NCBI GenBank assembly: GCA_016789785.1
Contig: JAEUQE010000277.1
Span: 1-10,263, forward strand
Length of the DNA stretch: 10,263 nucleotides
Origin: Bryobacterales bacterium
GTDB taxonomy: Bacteria; Acidobacteriota; Terriglobia; Bryobacterales; Bryobacteraceae
Direction of reading: 5' to 3'
A model generated the notes under the pieces. The model ran no database searches. It had not been told where the DNA came from and saw nothing but the letters and a program-made list of their open reading frames with translations. This document shows, one piece after another, positions 1,491 through 9,870 of the stretch. A program made the position numbers and the translations under genes. Every line of letters starts with the position of its first letter. Positions within the stretch are counted from its first letter, which is position 1.

Positions 1491-3905
1491 GTGGCAACCT
1501 TCGTGCCTCCTGCTCATCCCATGCAGTCTTCCCTCTGGCAGTTGCCACGCAGACGGCCCTCGCTGTATCTGTTGCTCGTTGCGACCCTCGCAGCGGCGAT
1601 CGGCTTACCGACAGCGGCCTTCAGTGTTCTTTACGGCGTGCTCTACGATCCGCTTCCGTATCCTGCATCCGAGCGGCTGGTGATGCTCTGGACGCAGTGG
1701 GAGAAGCTGATGCCCGGCAACCTGCTGGTGGGTGCGGCGAACATGCGCGATTGGAAAGCGCAATCGCAGCTCTTCGAAGACATGGCCGTGGTCCGCCATA
1801 TCGCGAACTACAGTCTCACGGGCGAAGGAACGCCGGAGCGTCTCATTGGTGCGCGCGCCACGGGTAATCTGTTTCGCATCCTGGGCGTCGCGCCGATTCT
1901 CGGAACCACGTTCACCGAGGAGCACAACGAGGAAGCCAAGGCATACGTGGTGGTGTTGAGCGAGCGCTTGTGGAAACGCCGCTTTGGCGCTGATCCCAAC
2001 ATTGTTGGCCGCAAGGTGCAGTTGAATGGGTTCGGCTATACGGTCCTCGGTGTCATGCCGGAGCACTTTCGTTTTCCGAACGGCGAATTCGAACTCTGGG
2101 CGCCGGCGGTCTTTCGCAAAGAGGAGTTCGAGCAGCGTCTTGGCCTCGACTATCTCGGCGTGGGGCGCCTGCGCGCGGGTGTTGCACGCGAGGCCGCTCA
2201 ATCGGAGTTGAATGCGATCTCCGCGCGGTTGGAGCAGCAGTATGCCATCAATCAGGGCATGCGCGCCGCCATCACGCCGATGCTGACGGAAGAGACCCAG
2301 GCAGCACGGCCCGTGATGTGGCTTGTGTTCGGGGCAGCGGGTTTGTTGATGTTGCTCGGGTGTGCGAATATCGCGAACCTGATGCTGGCTCGCGGCAGTG
2401 CGCGACAACGTGAGCTTTCGATTCGCGCTGCCTTGGGCGCGAGTACCGGCCGCATCGCATGGGACCTGTGCCTGGAGTTGGCGCCGGTGCTGTTCGCCGC
2501 CGTGGGCGCCGGAGTTCTGCTGGCAGGCTGGATGATCGAGTTCGCGGTACCGATGCTGCCGGCGGGCACTCCGCGCATGGAGAACGTGAAGTTACATCCA
2601 GCAGTGCTTCTGTTTGCGGTGCTCTCGGCCTGTGTGGTCGCAGTGTTGACAGCGCTGCTTCCCGCGATTCACGCATCGTCGCGGTATGGCAGGACATCGG
2701 TGAACACGCGGTCCACCACTGCCGATCGATCCACATTGCGGCTGCGCGATCTGCTGGTAGTGGGACAACTCGCACTTGCGACGCTGCTGCTGCTCGGTGC
2801 GGGGCTGCTTGGGCGGTCGATGATGAAACTGCGCGATGTGAATCCAGGCTTCCGTGCGGAAAGCGCGTTGAGCTTGCAGATGGCCATCGCGCGTGGGCGC
2901 TACCCGAAGGATGAACAGATCGCGCAGGTGTGTGATCGCTTCGTCGATAGTGTGAGGAAGGTGCCCGGTGTGAAGAGCGCGGGAATGGTGAACCGGCTTC
3001 CGATGAGCGGTATTCAGCAGCTTGGCGTGATGGAAGTGGACAACGGCGGCTCGGAACCTGCGAAGGTCGGCAGCGTGGATTGGCGAAGCGCAACGCCTGG
3101 GTATTTCGAAGCGGCGGGAATTCCCTTGCTGCGTGGGCGCATCTTCCAACAGAGCGACGCGTCGCGAACCACGCAGGTGGGCCTGATCGATCAACAGATC
3201 GCGGACCGTTTCTTTGCGAGACAGGACCCGGTGGGGAAGCGAATGCGGATCGGCCCGGGCGCGCCCTGGATCGAGATTGTGGGAGTGGTGGGACACATTC
3301 GCAATGAGTCGCTCGATCAGGACCGGCGGCCTCAAGTGTACTGGCTATCGCAACAGCGTCCGCAGGATCGCATGGCGATGATCGTTCGTGTGTCCGGGAA
3401 GCCGGAAGACTTCGTGCACGCAGTGTCCAACGCCATTCATGCGGTGGAGCCGGATCAGGCGTTGTATGACGTGCGGCCGATGGAGCAAGTTGTCGAGCGC
3501 ACTCTCGGTGCGCGCAAACTGGCGTCGATCCTGCTCGCCGGCTTCGCTGGAACGGCGATTCTTCTCGCAGCGGTGGGTCTCTATGGCGTGATCTCGTTTC
3601 TGGTGGGACAGCGTAGCCGCGAATTCGGGATCCGTATGGCGCTGGGTGCGCAGCGTTCCGCGATTCTATCGGGGGTGTTGGCACGCTCGCTGTCGCTTGC
3701 AGCGATTGGTATCGCGGCGGGTGTGGCGATTGCCGCCGGCGCGGTTCGTACGATTGTGACGCTGCTTTACGGAGTGCAACCTTTCGATGCGGCTACGGGA
3801 ATCGTGTCGGTGGCGGTGCTTATTTCGATTGTCACCTTTGCGGCCTGGGCTCCGGCGTGGCGCGCATCAAGGATCGACCCCGCCAGATCGCTGCGGCAGG
3901 ACTGA
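1491..3905 (+). CDS. ABC transporter permease, duplicated FtsX/MacB type (ADOP-like)
   Basis: The protein has 804 residues and two copies of the MacB-periplasmic plus FtsX unit, the layout of the acidobacterial duplicated orphan permeases. A first membrane segment lies at about 25-48, followed by DPLPYPASERLVMLW, a hallmark of the family. A periplasmic domain follows, then the first FtsX helices (about 273-400) with the cytoplasmic motif RQRELSIRAALGA at 305-317. A membrane segment near 425-440 precedes the second periplasmic domain. The last FtsX domain has the matching motif QRSREFGIRMALGA near 707-720, and the protein ends in RASRIDPARSLRQD. Relatives move macrolides, lipoproteins or peptides, or transmit force across the membrane; the substrate here is unknown. 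No ATPase gene is in the window. The start is uncertain: GTG at 1491 follows an in-frame stop at 1473, and ATG at 1521 is the alternative. Neither has a clear ribosome binding site. Confidence 0.92.
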   Translation: MATFVPPAHPMQSSLWQLPRRRPSLYLLLVATLAAAIGLPTAAFSVLYGVLYDPLPYPASERLVMLWTQWEKLMPGNLLVGAANMRDWKAQSQLFEDMAVVRHIANYSLTGEGTPERLIGARATGNLFRILGVAPILGTTFTEEHNEEAKAYVVVLSERLWKRRFGADPNIVGRKVQLNGFGYTVLGVMPEHFRFPNGEFELWAPAVFRKEEFEQRLGLDYLGVGRLRAGVAREAAQSELNAISARLEQQYAINQGMRAAITPMLTEETQAARPVMWLVFGAAGLLMLLGCANIANLMLARGSARQRELSIRAALGASTGRIAWDLCLELAPVLFAAVGAGVLLAGWMIEFAVPMLPAGTPRMENVKLHPAVLLFAVLSACVVAVLTALLPAIHASSRYGRTSVNTRSTTADRSTLRLRDLLVVGQLALATLLLLGAGLLGRSMMKLRDVNPGFRAESALSLQMAIARGRYPKDEQIAQVCDRFVDSVRKVPGVKSAGMVNRLPMSGIQQLGVMEVDNGGSEPAKVGSVDWRSATPGYFEAAGIPLLRGRIFQQSDASRTTQVGLIDQQIADRFFARQDPVGKRMRIGPGAPWIEIVGVVGHIRNESLDQDRRPQVYWLSQQRPQDRMAMIVRVSGKPEDFVHAVSNAIHAVEPDQALYDVRPMEQVVERTLGARKLASILLAGFAGTAILLAAVGLYGVISFLVGQRSREFGIRMALGAQRSAILSGVLARSLSLAAIGIAAGVAIAAGAVRTIVTLLYGVQPFDAATGIVSVAVLISIVTFAAWAPAWRASRIDPARSLRQD

Positions 3906-3994
3906 GCAGCATGAAGGTGGAGATCCTCAAGCGGCCTGATGGGACCGGTCTGCTGGGTTCGGAATTGTGCTGGCCGCCTGCGGCCGCATCACGA

Positions 3995-4000
3995 TAGAAT
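3995..4000 (+). promoter_or_regulatory. Possible -10 element before the EEP hydrolase gene
   Basis: TAGAAT lies 12 bases before the ATG at 4013, so a transcript starting about 7 bases downstream would have almost no leader. There is also no Shine-Dalgarno sequence before this ATG, which would fit a near-leaderless mRNA. No -35 box is found at normal spacing (TTGTGC at 3965 is too far), so this is weak. Confidence 0.22.
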
Positions 4001-4012
4001 CGGCTTGTTCCT

Positions 4013-4795
4013 ATGAAGACTGCGATCTTGCTGATGCTGGCCACCTTTCCTTTGCTCGCGCAGAATGCGCAAGTGATTCGCGTGCTGAGCTACAACATTC
4101 ACCACGGCGAAGGTTCCGATGCGAAGATCGATCTGGACCGGATCGCAAAGGTGATTCTGTCCGCCGAGCCTGATCTGGTCGCGGTGCAGGAAGTGGATGT
4201 TCGCACCACTCGGGTGGCTGGCGTTGATCAGGCGCATGAACTGGCGAAGCTCACGGGCATGCATGTCATCTTCGGGCGTACCATTCCGTATCGCACGGGC
4301 TGGTATGGGAACGCGCTGCTGTCCAAGTGGCCGGTGAATCACTACGTGAATCACGAGATGCCATTCACACCGGGCCGTGAGAGGCGCGGCGTGATTGAGG
4401 CGCTGATGCTGCCGCCGCCGAACACAACGGGCGGATCGCAGTACCACATGCTTGCCACGCATCTCGACACGGGGGAAGCAGACCGTCTGCTCGCTGCGCG
4501 GCGGCTGCGTGAGTTAGTGGCCGAGCGCCCCGAGGGTTGGCCCATGATCATTGCGGGAGACATGAATGCGGTGCTGGGGTCCGCGACGATGCGCCTGCTG
4601 GGTGAGGATTGGACGCCAGCGCAGGGCGATGGACCTTTGTTCACGATTCCCGTGGAAAACCCCACGCGGCAAATTGACTTCGTGATGTTCCGGCCGGCCT
4701 CGCGATGGAAGGTGTTGGAGGCTCGTGTGCTGCCGGAAGCGGTGGCCTCCGATCACCGGCCGATTCTCGCGGTGTTGGAACTGATGCCTGAGTAA
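4013..4795 (+). CDS. Secreted endonuclease/exonuclease/phosphatase (EEP) family hydrolase
   Basis: The 260-residue protein is a metal-dependent hydrolase of the DNase I/EEP fold, whose members cleave phosphodiesters in nucleic acids, sphingomyelin or inositol phosphates. All core motifs are visible: SYNIHHGEG with Asn28, LVAVQEVD with the metal ligand Glu60, GNALLSKWP, ATHLD with His150, IAGDMNA with Asp183 and Asn185, IDFVM with Asp222, and the terminal SDHRP with Asp247 and His248. The enzyme should therefore be active. Residues 1-16 (MKTAILLMLATFPLLA) look like a signal peptide, so it probably acts in the periplasm or outside the cell. Length is normal for a single-domain member. It lies 107 bases after the permease and 133 bases before the DUF1080 gene, so it may have its own promoter. 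The fold is certain; the substrate cannot be told from sequence. Confidence 0.93.
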   Translation: MKTAILLMLATFPLLAQNAQVIRVLSYNIHHGEGSDAKIDLDRIAKVILSAEPDLVAVQEVDVRTTRVAGVDQAHELAKLTGMHVIFGRTIPYRTGWYGNALLSKWPVNHYVNHEMPFTPGRERRGVIEALMLPPPNTTGGSQYHMLATHLDTGEADRLLAARRLRELVAERPEGWPMIIAGDMNAVLGSATMRLLGEDWTPAQGDGPLFTIPVENPTRQIDFVMFRPASRWKVLEARVLPEAVASDHRPILAVLELMPE

Positions 4796-4928
4796 TTGCG
4801 CACCCCTCTCGCGGTGGTGCACCCCGCGCTACGGAAGTCCGGTCACCGATGGCGGCAGCCAGCCGCGTTATGATGGCAGTTCCTGAACATCGCTGGCCTC
4901 GCACGGGCACAGCGGAATGAGGTGCTCA

Positions 4929-5630
4929 ATGAACCGAAGGCAATGGATGATGCTCGCCGCGGCGGGCAGTCTGCATGCGCAGGAGTGGAAGCGCGCATTT
5001 CTGGATGGCACAGGCCCGGGCTGGCGCGACTTGAAGGAAGGTGACTTCGCGCCGGTGAATGGTGATCCCGATACGTGGGTGTGGAACGGCGACATTCTGC
5101 GCTGCAAGGGAACACCCATCGGCGTGATGCGCACCAAGGACAAGTTCACGAACTTCGAACTGGTACTCGAATGGAAGCATCTCAAGTCCGCGGGCAACTC
5201 CGGAGTGTTCGTGTGGGTGCCGGAAGAAGTGCTCGTGGGGCTGAAGCCCGATGCGCTGCCGAAGGGCGGCATCGAGGTGCAGGCGCTTGATCATGGCTAC
5301 ATCGAACTCTACATGAAGAAGGCCGGCAAGAAGCCCGACTTCTTCACCACCAATGGCGATATTTTCGCGGTCGGAACGTCGAGGTTGAAGCCATTCCCGC
5401 CACTCTCGCCCAATGGGTCGCGCAGCTTTCCGCGCAAGAACATGAGCAAGGGCATCAACGAGTGGAATCACTACTACGTGCGGGCGATTAACGGCGAAGT
5501 GCGGCTGTGGGTGAACGGCGAGGAAGTCTCCGGCGGCTCGGATGCGGACCCGCGTTCGGGATACCTTTGCCTGGAATCAGAAGGCAGCCCCATTGAGTTC
5601 CGCAACATCCGCGTGCGGGAACTGCCGTAG
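4929..5630 (+). CDS. DUF1080 (3-keto-disaccharide hydrolase) domain protein, exported
   Basis: The protein has 233 residues from the chosen ATG. Residues 1-17 (MNRRQWMMLAAAGSLHA) form a twin-arginine-like signal peptide. The rest is one DUF1080 domain with a concanavalin-like fold: WVWNGDILRCKG near 50-61, NFELVLEWKH near 75-84, GNSGVFVWV at 89-97, GGIEVQALDHGY at 113-124, WNHYYVRAINGEVRLWVNGE near 179-198, and a closing GYLCLESEGSPIEFRNIRVR. Characterised members hydrolyse 3-keto-glycosides or 3-keto-disaccharides; others may only bind sugar. Export suggests work on an external or periplasmic sugar compound. An ATG at 4917 in the same frame would add four residues (MRCS), but AGGTG at 4920-4924 favours 4929. 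Its stop is 6 bases before the next gene, so it probably shares a transcript with the kinase cassette although the functional link is unclear. Confidence 0.92.
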   Translation: MNRRQWMMLAAAGSLHAQEWKRAFLDGTGPGWRDLKEGDFAPVNGDPDTWVWNGDILRCKGTPIGVMRTKDKFTNFELVLEWKHLKSAGNSGVFVWVPEEVLVGLKPDALPKGGIEVQALDHGYIELYMKKAGKKPDFFTTNGDIFAVGTSRLKPFPPLSPNGSRSFPRKNMSKGINEWNHYYVRAINGEVRLWVNGEEVSGGSDADPRSGYLCLESEGSPIEFRNIRVRELP

Positions 5631-5636
5631 ATCGCG

Positions 5637-6698
5637 ATGCCTTCCCCTGATTCCGACACAGCGCCGATTCGTGCCGGCGAGGAACTCGATGCCGCTACTT
5701 TGACGGCTTACCTCCGGGGCCGGCTGGACGGCGTGGAGAACGGCATTGAGATCGAGCAGTTTCCGGGCGGCCATTCCAACCTGACCTATTTGCTGAGGGC
5801 CGGTGGAGCGGAGTACGTGCTGCGGCGCGCGCCGCTCGGTCCGGTGGCGCCGAAGGCTCATGATATGGCGCGCGAGTTCAACGTGCTACGTGCGATTCAT
5901 CCGCACTTCGCCGCGGCTCCGAAACCGTATCTGCTGTGTGAAGACTCAAACGTCATCGGAGCGGTGTTCTATTTGATGGAGCGGCGGCGGGGCGTGGTGC
6001 TTCGGAGTGAGATCGTGCCCGAATTCGCAGCCATTGCGGATCATCCGCGGCAGTTGAGCAGAGGGTTCGTGAATTGCCTGATCCAACTGCATTCCGTGGA
6101 TGTGGAAGCGCACGGGCTTACCGCGCTTGGCAAGCCGCAGGGATTCGTGGAACGGCAGGTGCGCGGATGGGCAGACCGCTGGCATCGCGCGCGCACCGAA
6201 GACAAGCCGGAGATGGATCATGTGGTGCGTTATCTGCAAACGCACATTCCTCCGGATGGGCCGCCAACATTGGTCCACAACGATTTCAAGCTCGACAATC
6301 TGATGTACGCCGCCCACGATCCAAGCCATGTGGAAGCGGTGCTCGATTGGGAGATGGCCACGGTTGGCGATCCGATGGTGGATCTTGGATTGACGCTGTG
6401 TTACTGGGATCCGCCGGATGCCGATGTTCGCGAAGGTCCAGTGCCGTGCCTGACGAGAGGTCCGGGGTGGTTCACTCGTGATGATCTCATTCACGAATAT
6501 TCCTTGCGCACCGGGCGTGACCTGGCTTCGTTGCCGTTTCACGAGATCCTCGGCATCTTCAAACTCGCCGTCATCATTCAACAGATTTACTACCGCTGGT
6601 TCAACGGCCAGACCCGCGATGAGCGCTTCGCACGCTTCCATCTTCGTGTCGATTCGCTGATACGTGGCGCCTATGAACGGGTTCGGCAACTCACATGA
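5637..6698 (+). CDS. APH-fold phosphotransferase, ACAD10/11 kinase-domain type
   Basis: The 353-residue protein has the aminoglycoside-phosphotransferase/choline-kinase fold. Visible parts are the nucleotide loop FPGGHSNLTYLL (42-53), the strand VLRR (61-64), Glu80 in the following helix, the catalytic loop LVHNDFKLDN (212-221) with Asp216 and Asn221, and the metal-binding LDWEMATVGDPMVDLG with Asp237. All kinase residues are present. The whole layout matches the N-terminal domain of ACAD11 and bacterial relatives, which phosphorylate 4-hydroxyacyl-CoAs with ATP rather than antibiotics. No signal peptide or membrane segment is seen, so it is cytoplasmic. The start has no Shine-Dalgarno; it sits 6 bases after the DUF1080 stop, and its own stop overlaps the next start in ATGA, pointing to translational coupling. 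The acyl-CoA kinase role rests on family and on the dehydrogenase gene downstream. Confidence 0.92.
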   Translation: MPSPDSDTAPIRAGEELDAATLTAYLRGRLDGVENGIEIEQFPGGHSNLTYLLRAGGAEYVLRRAPLGPVAPKAHDMAREFNVLRAIHPHFAAAPKPYLLCEDSNVIGAVFYLMERRRGVVLRSEIVPEFAAIADHPRQLSRGFVNCLIQLHSVDVEAHGLTALGKPQGFVERQVRGWADRWHRARTEDKPEMDHVVRYLQTHIPPDGPPTLVHNDFKLDNLMYAAHDPSHVEAVLDWEMATVGDPMVDLGLTLCYWDPPDADVREGPVPCLTRGPGWFTRDDLIHEYSLRTGRDLASLPFHEILGIFKLAVIIQQIYYRWFNGQTRDERFARFHLRVDSLIRGAYERVRQLT

Positions 6699-7411
6699 GC
6701 ACTCTTTATCTTTTTCGTCATGGCCAGGCAGGCACGCGCGATCATTACGATAAGCTCTCGGAGACGGGCTTGCTCCAGTCGCGTTTACTCGGCGAACAGT
6801 TGGCGGGGGACAGCGTCCGGATCGATTTCTTCTACACGGGCGAGTTGAGGCGGCAGCAGGAAACCGCGCGTCAGATTGTGGATGCCTACCGGCGTGCGGG
6901 CGCCGATGTGCCGGAACCAACGGTGGATCCGCATTGGAACGAGTTCGATCTCGATGGTGTGTATCAGGGCATTGCGCCGCAGATGGCTCGCGACGATGAG
7001 ACGTTCCGGGCGCACTACGAAGAGCTTCAGCGCGAGGCCGCGTTGGCCGGGTCCGCGGTGCACCGGCGTTGGACGGCGAGCGATATCGCGGTGGTGCGCG
7101 CATGGATTGAAGGGCGCTATTCCTATGACGGCGAGTCGTGGAACGATTTCACCACGCGAGTACGCAACGCGCGGCGGAACATCCTGCGGCATGATGAGAA
7201 CGCGACGATCGCCGTGTCCACCTCCGCCACGCCGATCGGAATCTGGACAGGCCTTGCGATGGATCTGCATCCGCGGTACATCATGCGGACCGCAGGCGTT
7301 TTGCATAACTCGTCCTACAGCATGTTCCGTTTGCGGGATGGCGAGATCTCGCTCTTCAGCCTGAATAATATTCCACACTTGAAAGAGCCCGCTCTGCGGA
7401 CGTTCCGCTAA
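6695..7411 (+). CDS. Histidine phosphatase (phosphoglycerate-mutase-like) family protein, first copy
   Basis: The 238-residue cytoplasmic protein starts with the family signature [10 protein letters not shown], with Arg8 and the nucleophile His9. A second active-site arginine is at about 53 ([10 protein letters not shown]) and the conserved acid is Glu83 in HWNEFDLDG. The C-terminal catalytic motif, normally V(S/T)HG, reads VSTSATPIG, with Ser177 where the second histidine is expected. Either another residue stands in, or activity is reduced or changed. The gene overlaps the kinase stop in ATGA and ends 13 bases before the dehydrogenase start. Context suggests action on a phosphorylated intermediate or side product of the kinase/dehydrogenase pair, perhaps as a repair phosphatase; this is inference. 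It is a paralogue of the gene at 8630-9319, with which it shares the WNE(F/Y)D block. Confidence 0.9.
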
Positions 7412-7424
7412 AGGAGAATCCACG

Positions 7425-8633
7425 ATGAACTTCGATTACAGTCCCAAGGTACAAGAGCTGCGCGCGAAGCTGACCGCGTTCATGGAGCAACACATCTACC
7501 CCAAGGAACAGCGCTATCTGGATGAAGTGGAGAAGGACCGCTGGGGTGTGGTGGCGGTGATTGAAGAGTTGAAGCCGGTGGCGCGCGCCGCGGGTCTGTG
7601 GAATCTCTTTCTGCCAGAGAGCGAATACGGCGCCGGCCTGACGAATCTCGAATACGCACCGTTGTGCGAGATCATGGGCCGCGTACAGTGGGCTCCGGAA
7701 GTGTTCAATTGCTCGGCGCCCGATACCGGCAACATGGAAGTGCTGGTGCGATACGGCAGCGAAGCGAATAAGCGCGAATGGCTCACGCCGCTGCTGGAAG
7801 GGCGCATGCGATCGTGCTTCTGCATGACGGAGCCCGACGTCGCCTCCTCCGATGCAACGAACATCCAGGCCAGCATCCGGCGCGACGGCGATCAGTACGT
7901 GATCAACGGGCGCAAGTGGTGGAGTTCGGGCGCGGGCGATCCGCGCTGTAAGATCTCAATCTTCATGGGTAAGACCGATCCTTCGGCGCCAAAACATAAA
8001 CAGCAATCCATGATTTTGGTGCCGCTCGATCTGCCGGGCGTGAAGATCGAACGCATGCTGCATGTGTATGGCTATGATCATGGCCCGCACGGCCACGGCG
8101 AGATCTCCTTCACGGATGTGCGTGTACCGGCGTCGAACCTGCTGCTTGGGGAAGGGCGAGGTTTCGAAATCGCGCAGGGCCGTCTGGGACCGGGCCGCAT
8201 CCATCACTGCATGCGTCTGATCGGTGTTGCGGAGCGCGCGCTGGAACTCATGTGCAAACGCACGTTGAAGCGTATTGCGTTTGGCCGCAGGATCGCGGAG
8301 ATGGGGAGCATTCGGGCTGATATCGCGAAGTCACGCATCGAGATCGAGCAGGCTCGTTTGCTGGTACTGAAGGCCGCCTACATGATGGACACGGTGGGCA
8401 ACAAGGCGGCTCGCAATGAGATCGCGGCGATCAAGGTGCTTGCTCCGAACGTGGCGCTGCAAGTATTGGAACGCGCGGTGCAGGCTAACGGCGCGGCGGG
8501 CGTTTGTCAGGACACGTTTCTTGCGGCGGCGTGGGCGAACTCGCGGACATTGCGTTTGGCCGATGGGCCTGATGAAGTACACATGGAGTCGATGGCGAAG
8601 CTGGAATTGCGCAAGTACGAGACTCCGGCATGA
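7425..8633 (+). CDS. Acyl-CoA dehydrogenase family protein, ACAD10/ACAD11 clade
   Basis: The 402-residue protein is a full-length FAD-dependent acyl-CoA dehydrogenase. It has an N-terminal helical domain (about 1-125), the flavin-binding beta domain with [16 protein letters not shown] (131-146) and [13 protein letters not shown] (161-173), then a C-terminal helical domain with [12 protein letters not shown] (253-264) and [10 protein letters not shown] (377-386). The last two motifs and WWSSGA are typical of the ACAD10/11 clade rather than of ordinary FadE enzymes. Where MCAD-type enzymes have the catalytic Glu in YEGT, this protein aligns Asp380 of ADGP. In ACAD11 and the lva pathway such a protein converts a 4-phosphoacyl-CoA to an enoyl-CoA with loss of phosphate. 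AAGGAG at 7411-7416, eight bases before the ATG, is the strongest ribosome binding site of the cassette. Its TGA overlaps the next start in ATGA. Family and clade are firm; the substrate chain is unknown. Confidence 0.95.
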
Positions 8634-9319
8634 GTTCGCTGGTGCTTGTGCGGCACGGACAGGCACGCGCGTTTGAGAAACACTCGGACCGTCTTTCGGA
8701 GTTGGGAGAGCAGCAGGCGCGAGTTCTCGGTGAGTGGTGGCGCGCGCGGGGTGTGACGTTTGGAGCGGCGATTTGCGGGACGCTGGAAAGGCAGCGGCGT
8801 ACCGCTGAACTCGCGGGTCTGGATGGCGTGATTGAGGATTCGAGATGGAACGAATATGACGCGGGCGGAGTGGTGGCCCGCGGTGTTCCTGCACTTGCAG
8901 CCGCGGATCCGGAGTTTGCCCGCCTTCACCGTGCGGCCGAAGAGCACCGGTACACACCTGAGGCAAATCGCCACTTTCAACGCATGTTCGAAATCCTCAT
9001 GAACCGCTGGGTGGAGGGAACGCTGCGGCTCGACGATGTCGAACCGTGGGACGTTTTTCAGCAGCGTGTTCGCGAAGCATTGCGGGACTTGATGAAATCA
9101 CACGGTTCGGGCGCGCGCGTTGCCGTGTTCACCTCCGGAGGGCCGATCGCCGTGGCTGTGCAAACGGTGCTCGCCGCGCCTGCGAACAAGATCATCGAGA
9201 TCAACTGGCGTGTTCGCAATTGCTCAATCACGGAGTTTCTGTTCACTCGCGATCGCATCTCGCTCGACCTGTTCAACGCGGTCTCACACCTTGAACCTTC
9301 CGCTGTGACTTATCGTTGA
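8630..9319 (+). CDS. Histidine phosphatase family protein, second copy
   Basis: The 229-residue cytoplasmic protein carries [10 protein letters not shown] with Arg8 and His9, the arginine region [10 protein letters not shown] (Arg54) and WNEYDAGGV with Glu75. The C-terminal motif reads [13 protein letters not shown], so Ser169 replaces the usual second catalytic histidine, the same change as in the paralogue at 6695-7411. The shared WNE(F/Y)D block and like gene position suggest both belong to one sub-family, but the sequences are far apart, so duplication is not recent. It starts in an ATGA overlap with the dehydrogenase stop, so its translation is tied to that gene. It may act on phosphorylated acyl-CoA or on another phosphate ester made by the kinase, or be a non-enzymatic partner. 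Assignment to the fold is firm; activity is open. Confidence 0.9.
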
Positions 9320-9362
9320 AGACCCGCTTTTCTTTGGCAGTGGAAAGGAGTATGGTTCGGCT

Positions 9363-9368
9363 GGAGGA
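9363..9368 (+). promoter_or_regulatory. Ribosome binding site that sets the start of the 9376 gene
   Basis: GGAGGA lies 7 bases before the ATG at 9376. It makes that ATG a much better start than the in-frame TTG at 9316, which overlaps the previous stop and lacks a site, or the ATG at 9352, where AGGAG is only one base away. Confidence 0.7.
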
Positions 9369-9375
9369 ATCCTAC

Positions 9376-9870
9376 ATGCCGAATGTTGGCAGTATTCATA
9401 AGCTGGGGCCGGCGCGGTCCGCGGTTGGCCGGACAGCGCGGTCGAACCCCACGTTTCAGAACGTGCCTGAGGACCGCATGGCGGCGGCCGTGGCGCACAT
9501 TCTTTCCGATCATGAGCCGAAGGCCGCTGTGCAAGCCGCGGAGATCCTGGTGAAGGCCGCCGGTCCACGGAGCCAGCCGCCGGACATGAAGCGCGCGAAA
9601 GAGGGAATGGAGAAGACGATGTTTGTGGCCGTGCTGGAGGAGATGGTGGAGGAAGTGGCGGCGATGCCGCAGTTTCGTCTCGAATCCGTGGTCGGCGAAT
9701 TGAACCGGCGTCTGGATGAGTTGCGGAATCCGCAATCGAAGCCGAACCAGAATTTGCTGGAAGCGATGCAGCAGATGCAGATCCTGCAACAGAGCCAGCA
9801 GGTGGGCGCCTCAGTGACGCAGGCGATGCATGGTCTGCAGATGAGTGCGATCGGCGGCACGCGCAGGTAG
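9376..9870 (+). CDS. Unrecognised helical protein, 164 residues
   Basis: I do not recognise the family. The ATG at 9376 has a strong GGAGGA site. The N-terminus (1-30) is basic and likely flexible. Residues 33-63 form an alanine-rich helical stretch containing ILSDHEPKAAVQAAEILVKA. Residues 72-118 are predicted helical with many charged residues (EEMVEEVAAM, GELNRRLDEL) and could form a coiled coil. Residues 125-155 are rich in Gln and Met (LLEAMQQMQILQQSQQ) and also look helical. There is no signal peptide, membrane segment or cysteine. The gene starts 56 bases after the second phosphatase, so it may be the last gene of the cassette. Codon use fits its neighbours. A small scaffold or nucleic-acid-associated protein is possible, but nothing in the sequence proves it. 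Confidence 0.78.
   Translation: MPNVGSIHKLGPARSAVGRTARSNPTFQNVPEDRMAAAVAHILSDHEPKAAVQAAEILVKAAGPRSQPPDMKRAKEGMEKTMFVAVLEEMVEEVAAMPQFRLESVVGELNRRLDELRNPQSKPNQNLLEAMQQMQILQQSQQVGASVTQAMHGLQMSAIGGTRR

Follow-up and report, generated by a model that had tools for sequence, protein, structure and literature searches.

The mammalian enzymes ACAD10 and ACAD11 have been reported, on experimental grounds, to phosphorylate 4-hydroxyacyl-CoA and to eliminate the phosphate, and LvaA and LvaC of Pseudomonas putida are cited in these reports for the same chemistry, and bacterial orthologues are reported to have been able to stand in for either half of ACAD10 (PMC11342911, PMC12440821). The HAD domain of ACAD10 is described as having an incomplete motif and negligible phosphatase activity, and as restraining the kinase (PMC11342911). 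In Pseudomonas citronellolis, a histidine phosphatase gene is reported beside an LvaA homologue, in an account that found no lvaB homologue (PMC6692424); its authors suggest that the phosphatase may strip phosphate from the intermediate, and call for functional analysis. A four-gene cassette related to these systems was analysed here in a stretch of 10,263 nucleotides (the window) of contig JAEUQE010000277.1 from a Bryobacterales bacterium (assembly GCA_016789785.1). It encodes a kinase, an acyl-CoA dehydrogenase (ACAD) and two histidine-phosphatase-fold proteins, HPA and HPB, both having Ser in place of the second catalytic His (Ser-type proteins). The cassette is composed of the following elements.

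5637..6698, forward strand: APH-fold kinase of the LvaA / ACAD10-11 kinase-domain type, predicted 4-hydroxyacyl-CoA kinase (353 aa; Pfam APH, homology).
6695..7411, forward strand: HPA, histidine-phosphatase fold of the Ser-for-His type (R8, H9, R53, E83, Ser177), ATGA-coupled to the kinase gene (238 aa).
7412..7424, forward strand: 13-base gap with a Shine-Dalgarno-like AGGAG across its start, read from the sequence.
7425..8633, forward strand: acyl-CoA dehydrogenase of the ACAD10/11-LvaC clade, predicted to be phosphate-eliminating (R253, H261, R264, D380; 402 aa).
8630..9319, forward strand: HPB, second Ser-type histidine-phosphatase fold, of a clade other than that of HPA, ATGA-coupled to the dehydrogenase gene (229 aa).

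The ATGA overlaps were located at 6695-6698 (kinase and HPA) and 8630-8633 (dehydrogenase and HPB), and AAAGGAG was found ahead of the ATG of the dehydrogenase, the third gene. The four genes, both overlaps and the gap had been listed in a preliminary description of this DNA and were confirmed on the sequence. In Pfam, the kinase matched APH (160 bits, 1e-46), HPA and HPB matched His_Phos_1 (66 and 78 bits), and the dehydrogenase matched the acyl-CoA dehydrogenase N, M and C domains; no HAD domain was matched in the four cassette proteins. The nearest dehydrogenase relative found (87% identity) belongs to a Bryobacteraceae metagenome-assembled genome (locus L001), which points to this acidobacterial family as the probable origin of the window. 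This locus has intact homologues of all four genes in the same order, with protein identities of 76.5, 69.7, 86.8 and 65.5%, so the four open reading frames (ORFs) are no chance frames. The ratio of nonsynonymous to synonymous divergence (dN/dS, NG86) between the window and L001 was approximately 0.05 to 0.08 for the kinase, HPA and dehydrogenase genes, with a dS above 1.7 that is therefore near saturation; the dS of HPB was not computable. Purifying selection acts on the kinase, HPA and dehydrogenase genes.

When the dehydrogenase was compared with solved structures, the ACAD11 entries 2wbi, 8v3u and 8v3v, together with 4hr3, gave 477-486 bits, and any other ACAD gave at most 130. Alignment to 8v3u located R253, H261 and R264, on the active-site helix, as well as D380, a catalytic Asp in place of Glu. 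The first three residues were kept in 120 of 120 distinct relatives and D380 in 119, the remaining one having a gap. They correspond to R626, H634, R637 and D753 of ACAD11, published residue numbers that are one higher than the numbering of the structure chain; in the mouse enzyme the first three are reported to be uniquely conserved with ACAD10 and LvaC, D753 is the catalytic Asp of the dehydrogenase and D220 the catalytic Asp of the kinase (PMC12440821). The cassette kinase, with an APH fold, a catalytic Asp (D216, aligned with D220 of ACAD11) and metal-binding Asn/Asp motifs, gave 350 bits with PDB entry 9o56 and 160 bits with the ACAD11 kinase domain. H214, D216 and N221 were present in all 111 distinct relatives, and D237 in 109, two being gapped. 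Because of this clade match and the kept catalytic residues, the prediction by homology of a kinase and a phosphate-eliminating dehydrogenase acting on 4-hydroxyacyl-CoA is well supported.

The preliminary description had proposed a split ACAD10/11-like pair, which the clade match and the residues support. Its assignment of the dehydrogenase to the ACAD10/11 clade was right (486 bits with ACAD11 against 130 with the next ACAD; Arg-His-Arg plus Asp), and both the scores and the clade-specific residues place the protein outside an ordinary FadE clade. APH kinases and ACADs are both big and diverse families, and an ordinary dehydrogenase could by chance stand beside an unrelated small-molecule kinase; however, the ACAD11-level similarity, the clade-specific residues and the co-occurrence of kinase and dehydrogenase given below make this coincidence very improbable.

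With mammalian ACAD11 and ACAD10, the cassette shares the kinase and dehydrogenase families and the same catalytic and phosphate-recognition residues. It differs in that its proteins are separate and that two histidine-phosphatase folds stand in place of the HAD domain of ACAD10, while ACAD11 has no phosphatase-like domain. The P. putida lva operon (LvaA, LvaB, LvaC, LvaD, LvaE) likewise has a separate APH kinase and ACAD10/11-clade dehydrogenase but, as published, no Ser-type genes. No match to a short-chain dehydrogenase/reductase (SDR) or a CoA-ligase was obtained among the ten window ORFs scanned, only about 0.9 kb being available downstream in the window; LvaB, whose family may be DUF6285 although a literature search for the term did not confirm it, was not searched for. 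SDR genes are present in cassettes of Deinococcus, Ideonella and Streptomyces. According to its published gene description, the putative levulinate cluster 2 of P. citronellolis LA18T (PCLA_07f0390 to 07f0396) has an APH kinase, a histidine phosphatase, PCLA_07f0393, a dehydrogenase and an SDR together, with one phosphatase in contrast to the two of the window. The link of the cassette to ACAD10/11 and lva is sound. That an LvaA homologue can have a histidine phosphatase gene next to it has already been reported for P. citronellolis (PMC6692424). This analysis adds the exchange of His for Ser as a family signature, the extent of the pairing with the kinase together with its limits (off-cassette genes and the Geobacillus family), and the distinct origins of HPA and HPB.

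Both HPA and HPB keep R8 and H9 (the RH motif with the nucleophilic His), the second Arg, R53, and the acid Glu, E83, and both have Ser177 as second catalytic residue. Their fold is that of branch 1 of the histidine phosphatase superfamily, lacking the second catalytic His of this branch. PhoE, PspA-type phosphoserine phosphatase and PGAM5 share with them the fold, the RH motif, the second Arg and the Glu, but the second His has become Ser in every HPA/HPB relative whose residue was read. Thus, the earlier label of phosphatase holds for the fold but omits the absent His. Among the matches listed, R8, H9, R53 and E83 were kept in 360 of 360 proteins, and so was the Ser; these are the best 120 each of 3609, 2122 and 1009 matches (one is HPB itself and some are locus proteins), and members near profile A1 are favoured in the counts since this profile was built from Ser-type proteins. 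The Ser was also found in 126 of 126 tree rows, two being HPA and HPB themselves and one lacking the N-terminus, so that its RH motif falls outside the coverage. It was read in 78 of the 80 genes of the family sample (82 matches, two genes being reported in two pieces), the two partial matches (G212 and G180:C57) ending before the residue, and in all 44 matches from the order of Marinobacter, where G358 is in pieces. Canonical control proteins show His at the motif in the six for which the pattern was resolved (L212, L216, L217, L220, L225 and L226). Ser-type proteins are named in databases as “histidine phosphatase”, “broad specificity phosphatase PhoE” or “phosphoglycerate mutase”, and these names may mislead.

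The pairing of these genes was surveyed in 121 genomes of the family to which the genome of L001 belongs (E <= 1e-120 for the dehydrogenase, 1e-40 for the kinase and 1e-20 for the Ser-type protein). The dehydrogenase was found in 47 genomes, the kinase in 49 and the Ser-type protein in 68, and 50 genomes had none of the three. Kinase and dehydrogenase occurred together in 45 genomes (Fisher p 6e-26), kinase and Ser-type protein in 47 (p 1e-14), and dehydrogenase and Ser-type protein in 44 (p 4e-12), p values that are optimistic because the genomes are related. At 31 of the 50 places where the kinase was found, a Ser-type gene lay no more than 100 bp away, and at 19 of the 50 the dehydrogenase lay within 3 kb; some kinases stand at contig ends, where the neighbourhood cannot be judged. 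The recurrent pairing of kinase and histidine phosphatase genes anticipated in the preliminary description was therefore found, both at these 31 places and in other phyla. Its picture of a four-gene bacterial version describes the gene set present here, but the complete form is uncommon, being present in 4 of the 121 genomes. The commoner form is a kinase with one phosphatase-fold gene, often accompanied in other phyla by SDR genes.

Since loci L001-L080 were collected through the dehydrogenase, linkage counts were taken only from the other searches. A phylum-wide sample gave a phosphatase-fold match (E <= 1e-10) in only 6 of 149 genomes. In the order of Marinobacter, the Ser-type protein was present in 38 of 95 genomes, at 44 places; a kinase or clade dehydrogenase was found inside approximately 1.5 kb at 30 of these (19/30 and 11/14) and was absent at 14. 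HPA was matched by 39 plasmid records, 14 of which, picked for spread and not at random, were opened. The kinase adjoined the phosphatase-fold gene in 11 of them, from Deinococcus, Sulfitobacter, Azospirillum, Caballeronia, Pseudoalteromonas, Burkholderia, Streptomyces and Ideonella, and did not in 3. Several plasmid cassettes are ordered dehydrogenase-SDR-kinase-phosphatase fold. Altogether, Ser-type genes adjoin the kinase in members of four phyla: Acidobacteriota, Deinococcota, Pseudomonadota and Actinomycetota.

In a tree of 126 rows made by a quick method, HPA fell in a set of 48 rows (SH-like approximate likelihood ratio test, SH-aLRT, 100) and HPB in a set of 21 (SH-aLRT 95), which also includes three Deinococcus proteins. 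On the strength of these separate supported sets, a recent tandem duplication was rejected, and HPA and HPB look like old paralogues gathered into one cassette rather than products of a local duplication. Each set includes rows with neither kinase nor dehydrogenase nearby, many loci having only 1.5 kb of flank. Genomic context was clustered on the tree: it changed 30 times, whereas shuffling gave a mean of 61.

An account of the whole cassette can be proposed in which the kinase would phosphorylate the 4-hydroxyl of 4-hydroxyacyl-CoA, and the dehydrogenase would take the resulting 4-phosphoacyl-CoA and eliminate phosphate, yielding 2-enoyl-CoA for beta-oxidation. HPA and HPB, whose pocket keeps His9, both Arg and Glu83, would bind there either the phosphorylated intermediate or the corresponding free acid, acting as slow or narrow clean-up phosphatases beside the main route and limiting the build-up of phosphorylated acyl species not taken by the dehydrogenase. 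Through translational coupling, their amounts would stay in step with those of the kinase and dehydrogenase. That the nucleophile and the residues binding phosphate are invariant speaks for some phosphoryl chemistry, and the fixed Ser suggests that it would be unlike that of ordinary branch 1 members. The Ser-type proteins are probably accessory, with a clean-up or a brake function; the complete account of a split ACAD10/11 system with clean-up phosphatases is the preferred one but is offered tentatively, at slightly less than an even chance.

A side role fits better than a main one, because a plain phosphatase acting on the main route would simply reverse what the kinase has done. The discussion in PMC6692424 proposes for P. 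citronellolis that the phosphatase dephosphorylates 4-phosphoacyl-CoA as a pathway step, and the retained active-site core agrees with this, but hydrolysis merely regenerates 4-hydroxyacyl-CoA, and ACAD11 as well as LvaA/LvaC are reported to give enoyl-CoA without such a protein (PMC12440821, PMC11342911). In the Geobacillus family the dehydrogenase was matched in 26 of 41 genomes and the Ser-type protein in 0 of 41, so the latter does not appear to be an obligatory step. A main-route phosphatase was consequently rejected as most unlikely.

Several observations weigh against the clean-up account. The empty answer in the Geobacillus family is itself weak without a known positive in that group. 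The Ser-type gene lay within 100 bp of the dehydrogenase at only 16 of 48 dehydrogenase places of the 121 genomes, and 20 of these genomes had a Ser-type protein with no kinase or dehydrogenase match at the cut-offs used. In 20 neighbourhoods of off-cassette Ser-type genes, partly from genomes with a cassette elsewhere and some of them cut by contig ends, no such kinase or clade dehydrogenase was found, and a dedicated role in the cassette is therefore not demonstrated. These off-cassette genes carry the same Ser. Strict linkage of the Ser-type protein to the cassette is ruled out by the 20 genomes and the 20 neighbourhoods. Finally, without their second His these proteins may no longer hydrolyse anything.

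The same occurrences could be explained if the Ser-type proteins were a phosphatase-fold family with a general function in lipid or CoA catabolism, merely often near the cassette and acting on another phosphorylated metabolite. Besides the 20 genomes, this is favoured by Ser-type genes standing near SDR/thiolase-like ORFs or apparently unrelated genes, and by the rows without kinase or dehydrogenase nearby in both the HPA and the HPB clades. Nevertheless, the kinase adjacency in four phyla and the clustering of context on the tree make such an explanation quite unlikely.

The preliminary description had gone further and had histidine-phosphatase-fold proteins replacing the HAD domain. Read as a pathway part played by active phosphatases, this is not supported, because the second His is absent, the family is found without kinase and dehydrogenase, and the chemistry of ACAD11 and LvaA/LvaC runs without such proteins. 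The HAD domain of ACAD10 is itself a degenerate phosphatase with a restraining effect on the kinase, so the analogy may hold in another way, both being altered phosphatase-fold partners. HPA, and HPB with it, might then be regulatory pseudophosphatases that bind the phosphorylated product without hydrolysing it, as a feedback brake on the kinase or its required partner, a role equated with that of the degenerate HAD domain in ACAD10 or of LvaB in the P. putida kinase pair. The Ser at the second His position in every relative read, the ATGA coupling and the closer adjacency to the kinase than to the dehydrogenase (31/50 against 16/48) agree with this, as do the properties reported for the HAD domain (PMC11342911) and the histidine phosphatase gene of P. 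citronellolis where no lvaB homologue is reported (PMC6692424). The ACAD10 parallel supports a control function. On the other hand, an invariant nucleophilic His, both Arg and Glu in the 360 proteins among the matches listed would be unusual for a dead enzyme, a drop in activity of less than tenfold is cited for rat fructose-2,6-bisphosphatase when catalytic His is replaced (PMC10728186), and Geobacillus-family genomes carry the dehydrogenase without a Ser-type match. A pseudophosphatase role is accordingly considered possible but rather unlikely.

Other contexts of phosphatase-fold genes were also noted. In Caballeronia (L072, 4075-4800, and L079) a divergent APH kinase and a dehydrogenase of the ACAD10/11 clade are encoded immediately downstream of a canonical His-type phosphatase; a close relative of the latter (E <= 1e-15) was found in 1 of 143 genomes of its class, namely its own. 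The Ser-type gene of L200 adjoins another phosphatase gene, which matches only weakly (24 bits) and has a His in its motif; the two ORFs are 894-1451 and 1456-2163. Off-cassette Ser-type genes stand near long, similar-looking ORFs in L154, L155, L163 and L166, one starting MxCxHCGK, which is possibly a second conserved context. By eye, they stand near an ORF resembling DNA polymerase I in L158 and L170, and in L205 and L206 of the Marinobacter order they are surrounded by SDR and thiolase-like ORFs. On a plasmid of Deinococcus aetherius (L176), a Ser-type gene is near type I-C CRISPR genes, approximately 24 kb from the kinase and dehydrogenase matches. In the Deinococcus plasmid cassettes L081 and L082, a small ORF adjoins the dehydrogenase, with MaoC, thioesterase or CoA-ligase genes nearby; these ORFs (L081 1719-2060 and L082 2276-2680), LvaB-like candidates, had no Pfam match.

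The cassette of the window is preceded by one further gene.

4917..5630, forward strand: 3-keto-disaccharide hydrolase (PF06439) gene, 6 bases upstream of the kinase gene and syntenic in L001 (Pfam, synteny).

DNA synteny with L001 extends from 4972 to 9280, covering most of this gene and the four cassette genes; its counterpart in L001 lies at 3456-4205. At the other end, a 184-aa ORF with a TTG start (9316-9870) overlaps the end of HPB and had no Pfam match.

A wider proposal is that the Ser-for-His family is, across phyla, a regulatory or phosphoryl-handling partner of bacterial 4-hydroxyacyl-CoA kinases and matches, independently, what the degenerate HAD domain does in ACAD10; we regard this proposal as unlikely, if conceivable. 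If it were true, two unrelated phosphatase folds would have been disabled or retuned toward one control task. Bacterial cassettes with another phosphatase fold beside the same kinase, one catalytic residue being changed in every relative read, make it possible to ask with small, separate proteins what the phosphatase-like domain of ACAD10 does in mammalian 4-hydroxy-acid metabolism.

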